The notes under the pieces are model-generated. The model searched no databases. It was not told where the DNA came from and saw nothing but the letters and a program-made list of their open reading frames with translations. Shown piece after piece: positions 18,193 to 49,138 of a stretch of DNA of 55,143 nucleotides. Source of the stretch: Betaproteobacteria bacterium. Lineage in GTDB: Bacteria; Pseudomonadota; Gammaproteobacteria; Burkholderiales; Burkholderiaceae_E. The stretch lies in NCBI GenBank assembly GCA_018970865.1, contig JAGWVN010000013.1, positions 1-55,143 on the forward strand, in the 5' to 3' direction. The translations under genes were made by a program, and so were the position numbers. Every line of letters begins with the position of its first letter. Position 1 is the stretch's first letter.

Positions 18193-19713
18193 ATGAACAC
18201 CACCACGCGGCCCGACGAGGCCGCCGCGCTGGCCTCGGCCGGCGCCACGCCGGCCGGTCACTTCGATGTGCTGATCGCCGGCGCCGGCATTTCCGGCGTC
18301 GGCGGCGCCTATCACCTGCAGCAGCAGTGCCCCGGCACGCGCTTCGTGGTGCTCGACGCCCAGGACGGCTACGGCGGCACCTGGCGCACCCACCGCTATC
18401 CCGGCATCCGCTCCGACAGCGATCTCTACACCTTCGGCTATCGCTTCAAGCCCTGGCTGGGCGCGCCGATTGCCACCGCCGCCGAGATCCTGAAGTACAT
18501 GGGCGAGGTGATCGACGACAACGCGCTCGCCCCGCACATCCGCTACCGGCACCGCATCGACGCCGCGAGCTGGTCGGGCGCCGAGCGCCGCTGGACCCTC
18601 CAGGTCACGCGGCTCGACACCGGCGAGCGGCTGCTGTTCACCGCCGGCTTCCTCTGGATGTGCCAGGGCTACTACCGGCACACCGAGGGCTACACACCCG
18701 AGTGGCCGGGCATGGACCAGTTCGGCGGGCGCATCGTGCATCCGCAGACCTGGCCCGAGGACATCGATCTCGCCGGCAAGCGGGTGGTGGTCATCGGCTC
18801 GGGCGCCACCGCGGCCACCCTGGTGCCGGCCATCGCCGACCGATGCGCCCATGTCACCATGCTGCAGCGCTCGCCCACCTACTTCGTCACCGGGCGCAAC
18901 GCCAACCAGCTCGCCGACACCCTGCGCGAGCTCGACATCGACCCGATGTGGATCCACGAGATCGTGCGCCGCAAGATCCTGTTCGATCAGGCGGCGGTGG
19001 CGCGCCGCTCCTTCAGCGAGCCCGACAAGCTCAAGGCCGAGCTGCTGGCCGGCGTGAAGGCCTTCCTGGGCGACAGCGTCGACATCGAGCGCCACTTCAC
19101 GCCGCGCTACCGGCCCTGGCGCCAGCGCATCGCCTTCATCCCCGACGGCGACCTGTTCCGCGCCATCCGCGAGGGCAAGGCCTCGATGGCCACCGACGAG
19201 ATCGCGCAGTTCGACGCCGGCGGCATCGTCCTGAAATCGGGCGATCGGCTCGATGCCGATGTGGTGGTCACCGCCACCGGCTTCCACCTGAATGTGCTGG
19301 GCGACATCGCCTTCGAGATCGACGGCAGGCCGCTCGACTTCGCCCAGACCGTGTCCTGGCGCGGCACGATGTTCACCGGCGTGCCCAACCTCGCCTGGGT
19401 GTTCGGCTACTTCCGCGCGAGCTGGACGCTGCGCGCCGACCTCATCGCCGATCTGGTCTGCCGATTGCTGCAGACCATGAAGGCGCGCGGCGCCACGGTG
19501 GTCGAGCCGCAACTGCGGCCCGAGGACGCCGACATGCCCCTGATGCCCTGGGTGGATCCGGAGAACTTCAACCCCGGCTACCTCATGCGCGGCCTGCACC
19601 TGCTGCCGCAGCAGGGCGAGCGCATGCCCTGGCGGCACTCGCAGGACTACTGGACCGAAAAGGACGAGCTGCCGCAGGCCAGCCTCGACGACGGGGCGTT
19701 GCGCTTTTCCTGA
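18193..19713 (+). CDS. Flavin monooxygenase of the Baeyer-Villiger type
   Basis: A 506-residue FAD- and NADPH-dependent monooxygenase. The first dinucleotide-binding motif GAGISG is at residues 30-35 and the second, VIGSGATAAT, near 200. Between them lies the Baeyer-Villiger fingerprint FxGxxxHxxxW: Phe177, Gly179, His183 and Trp187 followed by Pro. The family converts ketones to esters or lactones; close relatives may do sulfur or nitrogen oxidation. The C-terminal half carries VTATGFHLNVLGD, the usual ATG motif. It follows the SDR gene by a single base. Confidence 0.9.
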   Translation: MNTTTRPDEAAALASAGATPAGHFDVLIAGAGISGVGGAYHLQQQCPGTRFVVLDAQDGYGGTWRTHRYPGIRSDSDLYTFGYRFKPWLGAPIATAAEILKYMGEVIDDNALAPHIRYRHRIDAASWSGAERRWTLQVTRLDTGERLLFTAGFLWMCQGYYRHTEGYTPEWPGMDQFGGRIVHPQTWPEDIDLAGKRVVVIGSGATAATLVPAIADRCAHVTMLQRSPTYFVTGRNANQLADTLRELDIDPMWIHEIVRRKILFDQAAVARRSFSEPDKLKAELLAGVKAFLGDSVDIERHFTPRYRPWRQRIAFIPDGDLFRAIREGKASMATDEIAQFDAGGIVLKSGDRLDADVVVTATGFHLNVLGDIAFEIDGRPLDFAQTVSWRGTMFTGVPNLAWVFGYFRASWTLRADLIADLVCRLLQTMKARGATVVEPQLRPEDADMPLMPWVDPENFNPGYLMRGLHLLPQQGERMPWRHSQDYWTEKDELPQASLDDGALRFS

Positions 19714-20754: not shown

Positions 20755-21516
20755 ATGCCCGCCCTTCATCCCTTGTGCTGCGGCCGCCTGGCCTTCGATC
20801 GCAGCGTGTTCTTCCCCGACGCCGCGCCCGGCGTGCGCACCACCGTGCCCGTGCCCGGCTTCCTGGTCATCCACCCGAAAGGCACGCTGCTCTTCGACAC
20901 CGGCGTGGCCTGCGAGGCCGCCGACGATCCGGTGGGCGTGCTCGGCAAGCGGCTGGCCAGCACCTTCACGCTGGCGGGCGCCGCCGACGAGACCGCGCCC
21001 GGGCAGCTCGGCCTGATGGGCCTGAAGCCCGAGGACATCACCTTCGTGGCCAACTCGCATCTGCACTTCGACCACTGCGGCTGCAACCGCTGGTTTCCGC
21101 GCTCGCAGATCCTGGTCCAGCGCGCCGAGATGGAGGCCGCCCGCGCGCCCGGCAGCCGCTATGACGAACGGCTCTGGAACCTGCCGCTGAACTGGCGGCT
21201 GATCGACGGCGAGCATGATGTCTTCGGCGACGGCAGCGTGCTGCTGATGCCCACGCCCGGCCACACCCCCGGCCACCAGTCGCTGGTGGTGCAGGTGGCC
21301 AGAGACTCGCGCTTCGTGCTCACCGCCGACGCCTGCTACTCGGCCGAGCACATGGCCCGCGACCTGCTGCCCTCGGTGGTGGCCGACGCGCCACAGATGC
21401 GCGAATCGATGCACCGCCTGCGCCGCATGGGCGAGCAGGCGGGCACCACCCTGCTCTTCGGGCATGACCCCGAACAGTGGGCCGCGCTGGGCGCGGCCCG
21501 GCAGGCGCTGCGCTAG
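20755..21516 (+). CDS. MBL-fold metallohydrolase, N-acyl homoserine lactonase-like
   Basis: A 253-residue metallo-beta-lactamase-fold hydrolase. The dinuclear zinc motif HxHxDH is His102, His104, Asp106, His107. A later GHTPGHQS gives another metal histidine and ADACY the bridging aspartate. The N-terminal VPVPGFLVIHPKGTLLFDTG phrase resembles the AttM/AiiA lactonase group. It could hydrolyse quorum-sensing lactones or other lactones made by the nearby monooxygenase. The ATG at 20755 is preceded by GGAG. The stop abuts the thiolase stop on the other strand with no gap. Confidence 0.86.
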   Translation: MPALHPLCCGRLAFDRSVFFPDAAPGVRTTVPVPGFLVIHPKGTLLFDTGVACEAADDPVGVLGKRLASTFTLAGAADETAPGQLGLMGLKPEDITFVANSHLHFDHCGCNRWFPRSQILVQRAEMEAARAPGSRYDERLWNLPLNWRLIDGEHDVFGDGSVLLMPTPGHTPGHQSLVVQVARDSRFVLTADACYSAEHMARDLLPSVVADAPQMRESMHRLRRMGEQAGTTLLFGHDPEQWAALGAARQALR

Positions 21517-25926: not shown

Positions 25927-26613
25927 ATGACCAGAATCGGCGACAGCCTGGCCGGCAAGCGGGTGCTCATCACCCTGGCTGCGGAATTCATGGGTCCGGT
26001 GCTGTGCGAGACCTTCGCCGCCCATGGCGCGGTGGTGATCGCCGACCAGCGTCCCATGGACTCGGGCGCGGCGGGCGAAGCCGCGGTGCGCGAGGCCGGC
26101 CAGGTCGATGTGGTGATCGCCAATCTCGGCGTGCCGGCCCCCTCCACCCCCGCCGACCAGATCAGCGATGCCGAGTTCCGCCATGTGTTCGCCCACATCG
26201 TCGACCCGCTGCCCGGCCTGTGCCGCGCCGCGCTGCCGCAGATGCTCGAGCGGCGCGCCGGGAAGATCGTGGTGATGGGCAGCGCCACCGCGCTGCGCGG
26301 CCAGAAGCGCACCGCCACCTACGCCTCGGCGCGCGGGGCTCAGGCTTCCTTCGTGCGGGCGGTGGGCGTGGAGGTCGCGCCGCGCAATGTGCAGGTGAAC
26401 CTGATCGCGCAGAACTTCGTCGAGAACCCGATGTACTACGGGCCCGAGGTGCAGGCCCTGCCCGCCTTCCAGGCGCGGCTCGCCCGCGAGGTGCCGGCGG
26501 GCCGCCTGGCCACGCCCCAGGAAGACGCGCTCTTCGCGGTGTTCCTGGCCAGCAGCGAGGTCAACTTCTTCGCCGGCCAGGCGATCTCCTTCTCGGGCGG
26601 CTGGGCGCCCTGA
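25927..26613 (+). CDS. Probable halohydrin dehalogenase (SDR-derived)
   Basis: A 228-residue SDR-fold protein lacking the classical cofactor glycine motif. In its place is Thr16-x4-Phe21-x-Gly23, the halide-pocket fingerprint T-x4-(F/Y)-x-G of halohydrin dehalogenases. The catalytic set reads Ser119-x12-Tyr132-x3-Arg136, where classical SDRs have Tyr-x3-Lys. Both patterns and spacings match HheC (Ser132/Tyr145/Arg149), as does the local context TYASARGA versus TYTSARAG. The enzyme would interconvert vicinal halohydrins and epoxides and accept azide, cyanide or nitrite. The ATG at 25927 is preceded by GGAG. The next gene follows by 62 nt. Confidence 0.8.
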   Translation: MTRIGDSLAGKRVLITLAAEFMGPVLCETFAAHGAVVIADQRPMDSGAAGEAAVREAGQVDVVIANLGVPAPSTPADQISDAEFRHVFAHIVDPLPGLCRAALPQMLERRAGKIVVMGSATALRGQKRTATYASARGAQASFVRAVGVEVAPRNVQVNLIAQNFVENPMYYGPEVQALPAFQARLAREVPAGRLATPQEDALFAVFLASSEVNFFAGQAISFSGGWAP

Positions 26614-26675: not shown

Positions 26676-27206
26676 ATGCCCCGCATCCCCTATGTGCCCG
26701 CCGATCTCGCCGAACCGGCCGAGGTGGTCGATGCCATCCGCGCGCGTCGCGGCGGCGAGCTGATCGCCCTGGACCGCATGCTGCTGCACAGCCCGCCGCT
26801 GGCTGCGGGCTGGAACACCTTCCTCGGCGCGGTGCGCACCGGGCTGATCGTCGACCCGATGCTGCGCGAGCTGGCGATGTGCGTGGTGGCGGTGATCAAC
26901 GGCGCCGAGTACGAGTTCGTGCAGCACGCGCCGCTGTTCCTGAAGGCCGGCGGCACGCCGGCGCAGGCGCAGGCCCTGCGCGACCCGGACGCGGCCCGCG
27001 CCGACGACGCCCTGTTTGCCGAGCGCGAACGGGCCGCGCTCGGCCTGGTCATCGAGATGACCCGCTCGGTGCAGGTGGCCGACGACACCTTCGAGAAGGT
27101 GCGGGCGCAGCTGGGCGAACGCCAGACCGTGGAGCTGGTGGCGGTGGTGGCCGCCTACAACATGGTGTCGCGGTTTCTGGTGGCCACCGGCATCCACCCC
27201 GACTGA
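26676..27206 (+). CDS. Carboxymuconolactone decarboxylase / AhpD-family protein
   Basis: A 176-residue all-helical CMD-family protein. The core is LRELAMCVVAVINGAEYEFVQHAPLFLKAGG (landmarks at residues about 65-95), with the conserved Glu and His of the family. The CxxC of AhpD-type peroxidases is absent. Such proteins include lactone decarboxylases and proteins of unknown role found beside SDRs. It lies 62 nt downstream of the halohydrin-dehalogenase-like gene on the same strand and is probably co-transcribed with it. The specific reaction is unknown. Confidence 0.8.
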   Translation: MPRIPYVPADLAEPAEVVDAIRARRGGELIALDRMLLHSPPLAAGWNTFLGAVRTGLIVDPMLRELAMCVVAVINGAEYEFVQHAPLFLKAGGTPAQAQALRDPDAARADDALFAERERAALGLVIEMTRSVQVADDTFEKVRAQLGERQTVELVAVVAAYNMVSRFLVATGIHPD

Positions 27207-37549: not shown

Positions 37550-38502
37550 ACCGACGGCGGCGGCTCGCGCTGCTCGGAGCGGCCGGCGCGCTGGCCACGG
37601 GCTGCGCCGCGCCGGGCCGGCCGGGTGGGGCCGGATCGCCCGATGCCGCAGGATCGGCCGGCATTGCCGCGGCGCCGGCCAGCGCGGCCGACGGCGCCCT
37701 GCCGGTGGGCATTCCCCGGGTCACCGAGGAGGTGCCCTATGTGCAGACCCCGCAGAGCGTGGTCGATGCCATGCTGGCCCTGGCCGGCGTGGGCCCCGGC
37801 GACCGCCTGGTCGACCTGGGCAGCGGGGACGGCCGGGTGGTGATCACCGCCGCCAGCCGTCACGGCGTGCCGGGCCTGGGGGTGGAGCTCGACGAGCGCC
37901 TGGTGGCGCTGTCGCGCCAGCTGGCCGAACAGGCCGGCGTCCAGGCGCTGGCCCGCTTCGTGGCCCAGGATCTCTTCGACACCGACCTCGCGCCCTACTC
38001 GGTGGTTACGCTCTACCTGCTGCCCGAGGTCAATCTCGCGCTGCGGCCGCGGCTGCTGCGCATGGCGCCGGGCACGCGGGTGGTTTCCCACGACTGGGAC
38101 ATGGCCGACTGGCTGCCCGACAGGAGTCTCACCCTGCCCGCACCGGGCAAGCCGGTGGGCCTGCGTCGCGAGAGCCGGCTGCATCGCTGGGTGGTGCCCG
38201 CCGCCTTCGAGGGCGCCTGGCGCGGCCGCCTCGCCGGCGAGCGTGACGCGACCCTGGTGCTGTCGATCCAGCAGCGATTCCAGAGGCTCGAGATCGAGTG
38301 GCGCATCGACGGCGCGGCGCCGGTCGGGCTGCCCGCGGGCGGCCGCACCCAGGCCCGCGCCGAGGGCGACAGGGTCTCGCTGCGGCTGGGCGCCGGCGCT
38401 GGCGCCCCCGTGGCGGGCCTGCGTCTGCGCCAGGGCCGCATCGAAGCCGACCTGAGCTGGGGCGGCGGTCCGCCCAGGGCCGCGCTGCTGCAGGCGGTGT
38501 AG
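37546..38502 (+). CDS. Predicted exported/lipid-anchored SAM-dependent methyltransferase
   Basis: A 318-residue protein beginning MNRRRRLALLGAAGALATGC, which looks like a lipoprotein or Tat-type signal with Cys20. A low-complexity Ala/Gly/Pro stretch follows to about residue 55. A class I methyltransferase core then appears: motif I VDLGSGDGR (89-97), acidic GVELDE for ribose, and VTLYLLPEVNLALRPRLLRMAPGTRVVSHDWDM as landmarks around residues 155-190. The final 110 residues are beta-rich and unassigned. The ATGA overlap with the aldolase gene fixes the start. The substrate is unknown. Confidence 0.8.
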   Translation: MNRRRRLALLGAAGALATGCAAPGRPGGAGSPDAAGSAGIAAAPASAADGALPVGIPRVTEEVPYVQTPQSVVDAMLALAGVGPGDRLVDLGSGDGRVVITAASRHGVPGLGVELDERLVALSRQLAEQAGVQALARFVAQDLFDTDLAPYSVVTLYLLPEVNLALRPRLLRMAPGTRVVSHDWDMADWLPDRSLTLPAPGKPVGLRRESRLHRWVVPAAFEGAWRGRLAGERDATLVLSIQQRFQRLEIEWRIDGAAPVGLPAGGRTQARAEGDRVSLRLGAGAGAPVAGLRLRQGRIEADLSWGGGPPRAALLQAV

Positions 38503-46760: not shown

Positions 46761-48020
46761 ATGAACCGAATCCACGATCAGAAACAAGCGGGTACCCCCG
46801 CGACAGATCCGTCAGGTCCTGCACGCTCAGCGTCTTCACGGGAGGACGGTGCGCGCACCCGGGTGGCGCTGGTCTACTTCAATGCGGGCGGGGGACACCG
46901 CGCAGCGGCCATGGCCCTGGAGGCGGCGCTGGCCCGGACCCATCCTCGCTGGCAGGTGCAGCTGGTCGACCTGTTCGCCGTGCTCGACCCGGAGGCCTGG
47001 TTTCGCCGCCTCACCGGCTTTCCGCCAGAGGCCTACTACAACAAGCGGCTTGCCACCGGATTCACCCTCGGGCTGCGCCAGGAGCTTCGGATGCTGCAGG
47101 CGATGATCCGGGCCGCTCACCCCCATCTCGTCGGCCGCCTGTGCCAGCACTGGCGGGCCTCGCCAGCCGACCTCGTCGTGTCACTCGTGCCGAATTTCAA
47201 TCGGGCGCTCGGAGAGAGCGTCAAGAAAGCCTGCACTGACGCACCCTTCGTGACGGTGATGACCGATCTCGCCGATTTCCCTCCCCACTTCTGGGTCGAG
47301 CCGGATGCCACACAGCACCTCATCTGCGGCACCGACAAGGCGGTCGACCAGGCACTCGCGCAGGGCATCGACAGGCAGCGCGTCCACCGCGTTTCGGGGA
47401 TGCTGCTGCGGCCCTCCTTTCACGAGGAGCCGGAGACGGACCGCGAGGCCACGCGGCATTCGCTCGGATTCCAGCCAGGAATTCCAGTGGGCGTGGTGAT
47501 GTTCGGCGGCGAGGGCTCGGTGACGATGAAGCGCATCGCCCGCGACCTTGGCGATCGCCCGCTGATCATCCTCTGCGGGCGCAACGAGCGGCTCGCCACC
47601 GCTTTGCGCGCGCTGCCCGCCCAGGCGCCACGGGCGATCGTGGGCTACACCGAGGATGTCGCGCGCTGGCTGCGGCTTGCCGACTGGTTCGTGGGCAAGC
47701 CTGGTCCGGGCTCCCTCAGCGAGGCCCTGCACTGCGGCCTGCCGGTGGTCACAGTCAGCAATGCCTGGACCATGCCGCAGGAGCGGTGGAACACCGTCTG
47801 GATCGGCGAACAGGGTCTGGGTATCGTTCTGCCCGGCCTTGCCCATCTTCGCGCGGGCGTCGACCTGCTCCTGTCCCGGTTGCCCGAGTGGCGTGAGCGG
47901 GTCGCCAGCTACCGGAATGCCGCCCTGTTCGAGGTGCCGCAGGTCCTCGGGGAGCTTGTGGAAGCCGCTCGCAGGAGCGGAACGGCTCAGCGTGGACCGA
48001 TCTCGATCTCGATCGCGTAG
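46761..48020 (+). CDS. Glycosyltransferase of the MGDG-synthase/UgtP type (glycolipid synthesis)
   Basis: A 419-residue GT-B glycosyltransferase. The N-terminal acceptor domain shows YFNAGGGHRAAAMAL (residues 39-53), the diacylglycerol glycosyltransferase signature. The C-terminal donor domain shows GKPGPGSLSEALHCGLPVV near 312-330. Homologues transfer sugar from UDP-sugar to diacylglycerol and, in some proteobacteria, make glycolipids that replace phospholipids when phosphate is scarce. AGGAAGG lies before the ATG at 46761. Divergent from the phytase-like gene. The 3' end overlaps the next gene by 34 nt, convergently. Confidence 0.85.
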   Translation: MNRIHDQKQAGTPATDPSGPARSASSREDGARTRVALVYFNAGGGHRAAAMALEAALARTHPRWQVQLVDLFAVLDPEAWFRRLTGFPPEAYYNKRLATGFTLGLRQELRMLQAMIRAAHPHLVGRLCQHWRASPADLVVSLVPNFNRALGESVKKACTDAPFVTVMTDLADFPPHFWVEPDATQHLICGTDKAVDQALAQGIDRQRVHRVSGMLLRPSFHEEPETDREATRHSLGFQPGIPVGVVMFGGEGSVTMKRIARDLGDRPLIILCGRNERLATALRALPAQAPRAIVGYTEDVARWLRLADWFVGKPGPGSLSEALHCGLPVVTVSNAWTMPQERWNTVWIGEQGLGIVLPGLAHLRAGVDLLLSRLPEWRERVASYRNAALFEVPQVLGELVEAARRSGTAQRGPISISIA

Positions 48021-49138
48021 ACGGTCCGGTCGACGCCGGTCTGGTTCACCCACAGCACATGAGGCCCATCGCCGAGCGACTGCGACGCGAGGGCCGAGAT
48101 CAGGTTGGTCTGCAGGTCCTGGGGCCCAAGATGCTTCCAGGACAGCATCCGCTGCACATCGGTGCCGGCATCGAAGACCGGGCCGCGCTGCAGCGCGTAG
48201 AACGCAACGGCGTCGGCAGAAGCGTAGTGCACGAGCCGAAGCCCCCGCAACCGTTGCCCGACGGGCACGTCGAATCGAATGAAGTCGGTGTCGGTGCGGA
48301 AGATCTCGCCATGCAGCACCAGATTGCCCTGCCAGGCCGGCAACGCGCTCGGCGCGAGCGCGGCTCCCGAGGCTTCGATCCACCCCGCGGATCCGGCATC
48401 GTCGATCGGCGTCAGCACGGGGGTCGAGGGATTGCCGGCCGCATCCCGCTGTCGCCACCAGACGCGCCGCAGGGCGTTGCCCGCGAACGCCAGGGTAGTG
48501 TCGCGACCGGGATTCCAGGTGGCCCCCTCATCGAGGGAATACTCCCAGACGGCCATGGGCTCGAGGCCGTCGATGCGGATGACCGGGAGCCCTCCGGTCT
48601 GACCGACCTCGATGCGCGGCGGCGCGGGCGGCATGGTGTCCAGCGTGCAGGCGGTCATGACGATCTCGGAGCGGTTTCCGAACTGATCGAAGGTCCGAAC
48701 CCAGATCGACTTGCGGCCATCACCCACCACGTCAAAGCTGGCGCCTTCGCCCCGGGTCCAGCTGCGCCCCAGGTCGAGCGAGTACTCCCAACCCAGACCG
48801 TCGAGGGGCGAAGTAACCGACCATCGGCCATTGCTGGTGATCCCGTCGGAAAGGCTCACCCCGGTGTCGTTGAAGCTGAGCACTGGCGCGGGAACGACGA
48901 CGCTGGCGGGCGGTGGGGTGGCGGGAGGGGTGGCGGGAGGAGTCGCGGCCGGCGTCATCGGATTGCCCGACTGGACCGATCCTACCGGCGCGAGGTCGGC
49001 GGCAGAACCCGACCCACTCCCGCCCCCGCCACCGCATCCCAGCAGCAGCATGGTGATGAGGAACCCGAGCATGCGACGCGGGCAACGCCGTAGGCATCCG
49101 ATCGCGCAGGGGCGCATCCGACAAAAGACTGCTTGCAT
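47987..49138 (-). CDS. Putative lipoprotein with two Ig-like repeats
   Basis: A protein of up to 383 residues that I do not recognise as a named family. A short hydrophobic run with the lipobox LLLGC (Cys35) is followed by Gly/Ser and Pro-rich linkers. Two clearly related repeats follow: WEYSLDLGRSW (117-127) continuing to WVRTFDQFGN, and WEYSLDEGATW (198-208) continuing to WWRQRDAAGN. These are bacterial Ig-like folds. The last 130 residues are unassigned. The start is uncertain: ATGs at 49138, 49117 and 49072 are all in frame, none with a good ribosome-binding site. Confidence 0.7.
   Translation of the reverse strand: MQAVFCRMRPCAIGCLRRCPRRMLGFLITMLLLGCGGGGGSGSGSAADLAPVGSVQSGNPMTPAATPPATPPATPPPASVVVPAPVLSFNDTGVSLSDGITSNGRWSVTSPLDGLGWEYSLDLGRSWTRGEGASFDVVGDGRKSIWVRTFDQFGNRSEIVMTACTLDTMPPAPPRIEVGQTGGLPVIRIDGLEPMAVWEYSLDEGATWNPGRDTTLAFAGNALRRVWWRQRDAAGNPSTPVLTPIDDAGSAGWIEASGAALAPSALPAWQGNLVLHGEIFRTDTDFIRFDVPVGQRLRGLRLVHYASADAVAFYALQRGPVFDAGTDVQRMLSWKHLGPQDLQTNLISALASQSLGDGPHVLWVNQTGVDRTVYAIEIEIGPR

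Follow-up and report, generated by a model that had tools for sequence, protein, structure and literature searches.

A very probable D-type halohydrin dehalogenase set among short-chain dehydrogenase/reductase genes of a Betaproteobacteria bacterium

The stretch of DNA analysed here (positions 1–55,143 of contig JAGWVN010000013.1 from a Betaproteobacteria bacterium; this whole stretch of 55,143 nucleotides is called the window) carries on its forward strand, at positions 25,927–26,613, an open reading frame (ORF) for a protein of 228 amino acids. With a probability that we put at about 0.93, this gene encodes a cofactor-free halohydrin dehalogenase (HHDH) of the D type, an assignment of both enzyme class and type that draws on sequence comparison and structure prediction. 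The motifs, the tree, the closest solved structures and the predicted fold agree in favouring this enzyme class over that of the NAD(P)-dependent short-chain dehydrogenases/reductases (SDRs). A first-pass annotation, made from the letters of the DNA, had proposed the same enzyme class, and these lines of evidence uphold it.

According to PMC4989007 and PMC11976700, the HHDH family is defined by two motifs, T-x4-F/Y-x-G and S-x12-Y-x3-R. The window protein has the first as T16-x4-F21-x-G23, spelled T-LAAE-F-M-G (residues 16–23; 25,972–25,995, + strand), and the second as S119-x12-Y132-x3-R136 (codons 119–136; 26,281–26,334, +). The ORF and the spacing of both motifs are exactly as first read, and the TYASARGA and QNF..N..YY stretches singled out in that reading are present in the protein. 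By analogy with the family, motif 1 would form a nucleophile pocket where other SDRs have the glycine-rich NAD loop, and motif 2 would supply the catalytic triad S119-Y132-R136; codons 161–172 (AQNFVENPMYYG; 26,407–26,442, +) specify a loop that aligns with the HheC loop GPNYLHSEDSPYFYP. All six motif residues (T16, F21, G23, S119, Y132 and R136) are invariant in a 56-row alignment, as are A161, Q162, N163, V165, N167 and Y170 of the loop.

The motif pair exceeds chance, since both motifs occur in 80 of 80 homologous loci examined and together in none of 66 SDR stretches from the same genome. The 80 loci are the nearest relatives (at least 55% identity) and were retrieved with patterns lying outside both motifs. 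The control stretches derive from 68 PF13561 matches in the window's own genome, from which the window protein was omitted and two rows of one gene were merged, giving 65 genes or fragments above the family cut-off and one below it. Motif 1 was found in one of the 66 and motif 2 in none, and pattern matching identified the glycine-rich loop in 55 and Ser...Tyr-x3-Lys in 49.

A phmmer search against the PDB returned HheD2 (7b73, E 4e-77), HheD8 (8xxb, 3e-71) and HheB (4zd6, 2e-54) as best matches, with FabG as the best ordinary SDR (5e-23); HheG (6i9v and 6i9w) reached about 2e-16, by E-value a more distant match than FabG. By their PDB titles, 7b73 is HheD2, 8xxb is an HheD8 triple mutant with chloride and 6a41 is just a 'Dehalogenation enzyme'. 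Identity to the window protein is 53.6% for HheD2, 53.4% for HheD8 and 47.1% for HheB; it is 30.5% for 6a41, 25.2% for HheA2 and 25.1% for HheC. The likeness to HheC that the first-pass annotation had drawn thus gives way to a D-type affinity: HheC (1pwx) has both motifs and the S-Y-R triad in common with the window protein, but also an extra segment and a C-terminal extension, both of which the window protein lacks. The predicted monomer, with six strands in the model, has a fold nearest to those of HheD8, HheD2 and HheB.

The maximum-likelihood tree comprises 53 rows (the window protein, 27 of the 80 loci, the divergent protein of locus L035, six PDB sequences and 18 of the 66 SDRs of the same genome) and covers the A, B, C and D types together with 6a41 and L035, with E-type, F-type and true G-type enzymes (6i9v, 6i9w) outside it. 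The window protein joins HheD2 and HheD8 in a D clade (support 84/79), beyond which branch HheB (96/88), then L035 (99/97), and then 6a41, HheC and HheA2. The 18 SDRs lie opposite all these HHDHs across a 100/99 branch. Clustering with NAD(P)-dependent SDRs, the outcome first named as speaking against an HHDH, is therefore not seen, and of the phylogeny from HheA to HheG that was to place the protein, the grouping with HHDHs, in the D clade, is supported for the types covered. This clade divides into one subclade containing the window protein and mainly Burkholderiales (13 rows, 96/87) and another, of 16 rows (96/91), in which HheD2 and HheD8 (the latter deposited as an engineered mutant) sit with Thauera, Dechloromonas and others, so that both solved D-type enzymes differ from the window protein in subclade. 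Nine alignment columns, six of them at 205–214, are almost fixed but different between the two subclades (at least 85% on each side).

HheD19–38 reportedly show 57–95% identity to the verified HheD to HheD6. The window protein is 53.6% identical to HheD2, the sole verified HheD compared, and about 60% identical to homologues from Thauera and Dechloromonas, genera that are sources of verified HheDs. The D-type subfamily is in print already (in PMC4989007, which dates from 2016 and cites a study from 2014), and the window protein adds a member to a described subfamily, not a new kind; the novelty first ascribed to it holds for the member and fails for the subfamily. PMC4989007 also states that HHDH subtypes share less than 30% identity with each other. 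The 47% identity of the D-type window protein to HheB places the B and D types closer than that statement suggests.

Generic annotation would have the window protein as an ordinary NAD(P)-dependent SDR. The only Pfam and NCBIfam models that match it are generic SDR models, just as had been foreseen for an automatic annotation, and it shares a Rossmann fold and ancestry with FabG-like enzymes. We nevertheless consider an ordinary SDR exceedingly improbable. Of the 181 NCBIfam models that match at E 0.001, the 25 listed all score below half their curated cut-offs; TLAAEFMG replaces the glycine-rich cofactor loop TGxxxGxG, and YASAR, with its Tyr-x3-Arg, replaces the Tyr-x3-Lys of YxxxK. At residues 65–68 stands ANLG, where NAD(P)-dependent classical SDRs characteristically have NNAG; part of the NAD-binding half is absent, both in the alignment and in the predicted structure; and in the tree the protein stands apart from the 18 SDRs of its own genome. 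Hardly less improbable is a B-type HHDH, a reading that would suit the 47% identity to HheB (221 positions compared) and the absence of the extra 22 residues, which gives the B and D types a short form in common; HheB also has both motifs, with Tyr for Phe in motif 1. HheD2 and HheD8 are closer, however, and lie inside the clade of the window protein, whereas HheB falls outside it.

Several observations weigh against the assignment to a D-type HHDH. Support for the D clade is moderate, and HheB is nearly as close as the D-type structures. The 37 window genes scanned, of 52 called, offer nothing pointing to halogenated compounds and include no match, at the cut-offs applied, to an epoxide hydrolase or alpha/beta-hydrolase family. 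Nor was a partner found to be conserved across the subfamily, as no Pfam family (E 1e-5) recurs more than four times among either the 76 upstream or the 72 downstream neighbours scanned. These neighbours, from 78 upstream and 74 downstream found in the 80 loci, were called with a home-made codon model; L038 and L039, which are the nearest two loci of the same genus, contributed to neither set, and recurrence was judged among the 25 commonest families listed.

If the D-type protein works as HheC does, Ser119 would hold the oxygen of a vicinal haloalcohol (PMC4989007, PMC11976700), Tyr132, its pKa lowered by Arg136, would take the haloalcohol proton, and the substrate oxygen would displace the vicinal halide to give an epoxide. 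The leaving halide may rest in a pocket formed by motif 1 (T16/F21/G23) and the 161–165 loop, and in the reverse direction anions would open epoxides. This reaction, such a pocket and a tetrameric assembly are what kinship with the family would lead one to expect.

The gene does lie among SDR genes, as first described, with four other PF13561 stretches in the window. Upstream are a divergent LD-carboxypeptidase gene and then genes for acetoacetate-CoA ligase, thiolase, a lactonase-like metallo-hydrolase and enoyl-CoA hydratase; the metallo-hydrolase (20,755–21,516, +) resembles AttM/AiiA acyl-homoserine lactonases, at scores below the curated cut-offs. Downstream, after 62 bp, follows a carboxymuconolactone decarboxylase (CMD) family gene (26,676–27,206, +; PF02627), and the two genes are possibly co-transcribed. 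The CMD gene adjoins the HHDH gene in all seven HHDH-carrying genomes of the genus within a set of relatives (own genome included), and among the 80 loci the pairing is confined to L038–L040, which are contigs of three of those seven genomes (tblastn E 1e-8). AhpD peroxidases carry Cys-x-x-Cys at the position matching the stretch NGAEYEFVQH of the CMD protein; because that stretch, inspected by eye, has no such pair, the CMD protein is unlikely to be a peroxidase of the AhpD type. A search for an operon or a conserved partner that might hint at function found none beyond the genus, and the CoA-ligase, enoyl-CoA hydratase and thiolase clusters that recur loosely near HHDH loci are not position-specific. 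With no recurring neighbour in the wider set, the natural role is not readable from synteny. Elsewhere in the window, the codon model marks likely genes that match no Pfam family at E 1e-10 at 18,193–19,713, 37,705–38,502, 46,863–48,020 and 47,987–48,883.

We also traced the distribution of the enzyme. Scanning named genomes gave at least 592 matching stretches, at least 556 of them confirmed as relatives (tblastn E <= 1e-3). The best 80 of these relatives were taken for closer study, and what is said on enzyme type applies to them; by record title these 80 are mainly Beta- and Gammaproteobacteria, with some Alphaproteobacteria. An HHDH was identified in 29 of the 101 genomes of the relatives set, which includes incomplete genomes, in 25 of 399 genomes sampled from the order and in just 5 of 397 of a thin phylum-wide sample (own genome included in each), the profile scans of the latter two scoring seven candidates per genome, so that a few may escape. 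The D-type subfamily is thus patchy yet not rare, and the rarity presumed in the first-pass annotation does not survive these counts. This picture agrees with the statement in PMC4989007 that most newly found HHDH sequences are of the A or D type.

Among 72,556 plasmid records, one holds a homologue at E 1e-25, 48.6% identical and itself annotated 'SDR family oxidoreductase', and viral contigs yielded one relative, its gene cut off by the contig end; neither match suggests mobility of the window gene. That contig of the viral collection (L118) begins inside a D-type HHDH gene (positions 2–406; 58% identity), and the frame just behind it, 1–1311, holds an alpha/beta-hydrolase domain; the five other frames scanned have no Pfam match at E 1e-6, which leaves a phage origin putative. 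Three metagenome contigs are titled Klebsiella pneumoniae (L041), Bordetella parapertussis (L049) and Actinobacteria (L056), titles that may be wrong; L041 and L056 encode HHDHs of the same subclade as the window protein, and the L049 enzyme shares 69% identity with it.

The window's own genome encodes two EHN epoxide hydrolases on other contigs, both with an alpha/beta-hydrolase domain, and no limonene-type epoxide hydrolase (PF07858). In the relatives set an EHN protein is present in 17 of 29 HHDH-positive versus 9 of 72 HHDH-negative genomes (Fisher 5e-6), or, counted by genus, in 8/14 versus 6/42 (p = 0.003). The order sample gives 16 of 25 versus 30 of 374 genomes (Fisher 7e-11) and 5/13 versus 19/151 genera (p = 0.025), and a family subset gives 15/26 versus 5/35 (p = 7e-4), assuming that genomes G000–G060 represent the window's family. 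The one control family, penicillin amidase, showed no such bias in the order sample (5/25 versus 100/374, p = 0.64; by genus 5/13 versus 47/151, p = 0.55). EHN was chosen post hoc, after the two genes had appeared in the window's genome, which is itself counted among the positives; the samples overlap, the genomes are related, and 14 of the 16 double-positive genomes of the order sample belong to three genera. The association is exploratory: it holds in overlapping samples and rests on few lineages. PMC4989007 records just two HHDH genes, among those known by then, that shared an operon with an epoxide hydrolase, and a literature search by title or abstract opening, with most subscription journals outside its coverage, found no study of HHDH–EHN co-occurrence.

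The locus L035 (genome G077) encodes a divergent HHDH-like protein, 38.7% identical to the window protein and 45.9% to the engineered HheD8 sequence, with both motifs present by eye; it branches outside the D and B types in a tree that contains no E or F types. Similar proteins occur in G543, G602, G653 and G677; the carriers are genomes of 1.8–2.1 Mb that belong to one genus, and an EHN epoxide hydrolase is also present in 5 of 5 carriers in the order sample.

The co-occurrence fits a route from haloalcohol through epoxide to diol. Speculatively, the cell would clear haloalcohols with the HHDH, and the unlinked epoxide hydrolases would remove the epoxide. That Burkholderiales-like D-type HHDHs and unlinked EHN epoxide hydrolases form a conserved, scattered two-step route against natural haloalcohols is a proposal we make tentatively and think rather unlikely. 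Somewhat better placed, if still short of an even chance, is the view that the protein has HHDH fold and chemistry and that its physiological job concerns a natural epoxide or related metabolite, perhaps in acyl-CoA catabolism, a role compatible with the enzyme class. Acyl-CoA genes abound in the window (enoyl-CoA hydratase, thiolase, acetoacetate-CoA ligase and three acyl-CoA dehydrogenases), the HHDH gene is kept patchily across many genera with non-recurring neighbours, and PMC4989007 leaves other physiological functions of HHDHs possible; however, at other D-type loci the genes immediately alongside show no prominence of acyl-CoA families.

HHDHs are a class useful for epoxide chemistry, and the window protein is a clean member that generic models label as an SDR; its addition to the D-type enzymes alters little. 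Possibly weightier is that many genomes hold D-type genes without a recurring neighbour, their natural role being presumed rather than shown. The two-step route, if true, would answer what chromosomal D-type enzymes are for, and the co-occurrence with EHN epoxide hydrolases makes the question of the natural role of D-type HHDHs a testable one.
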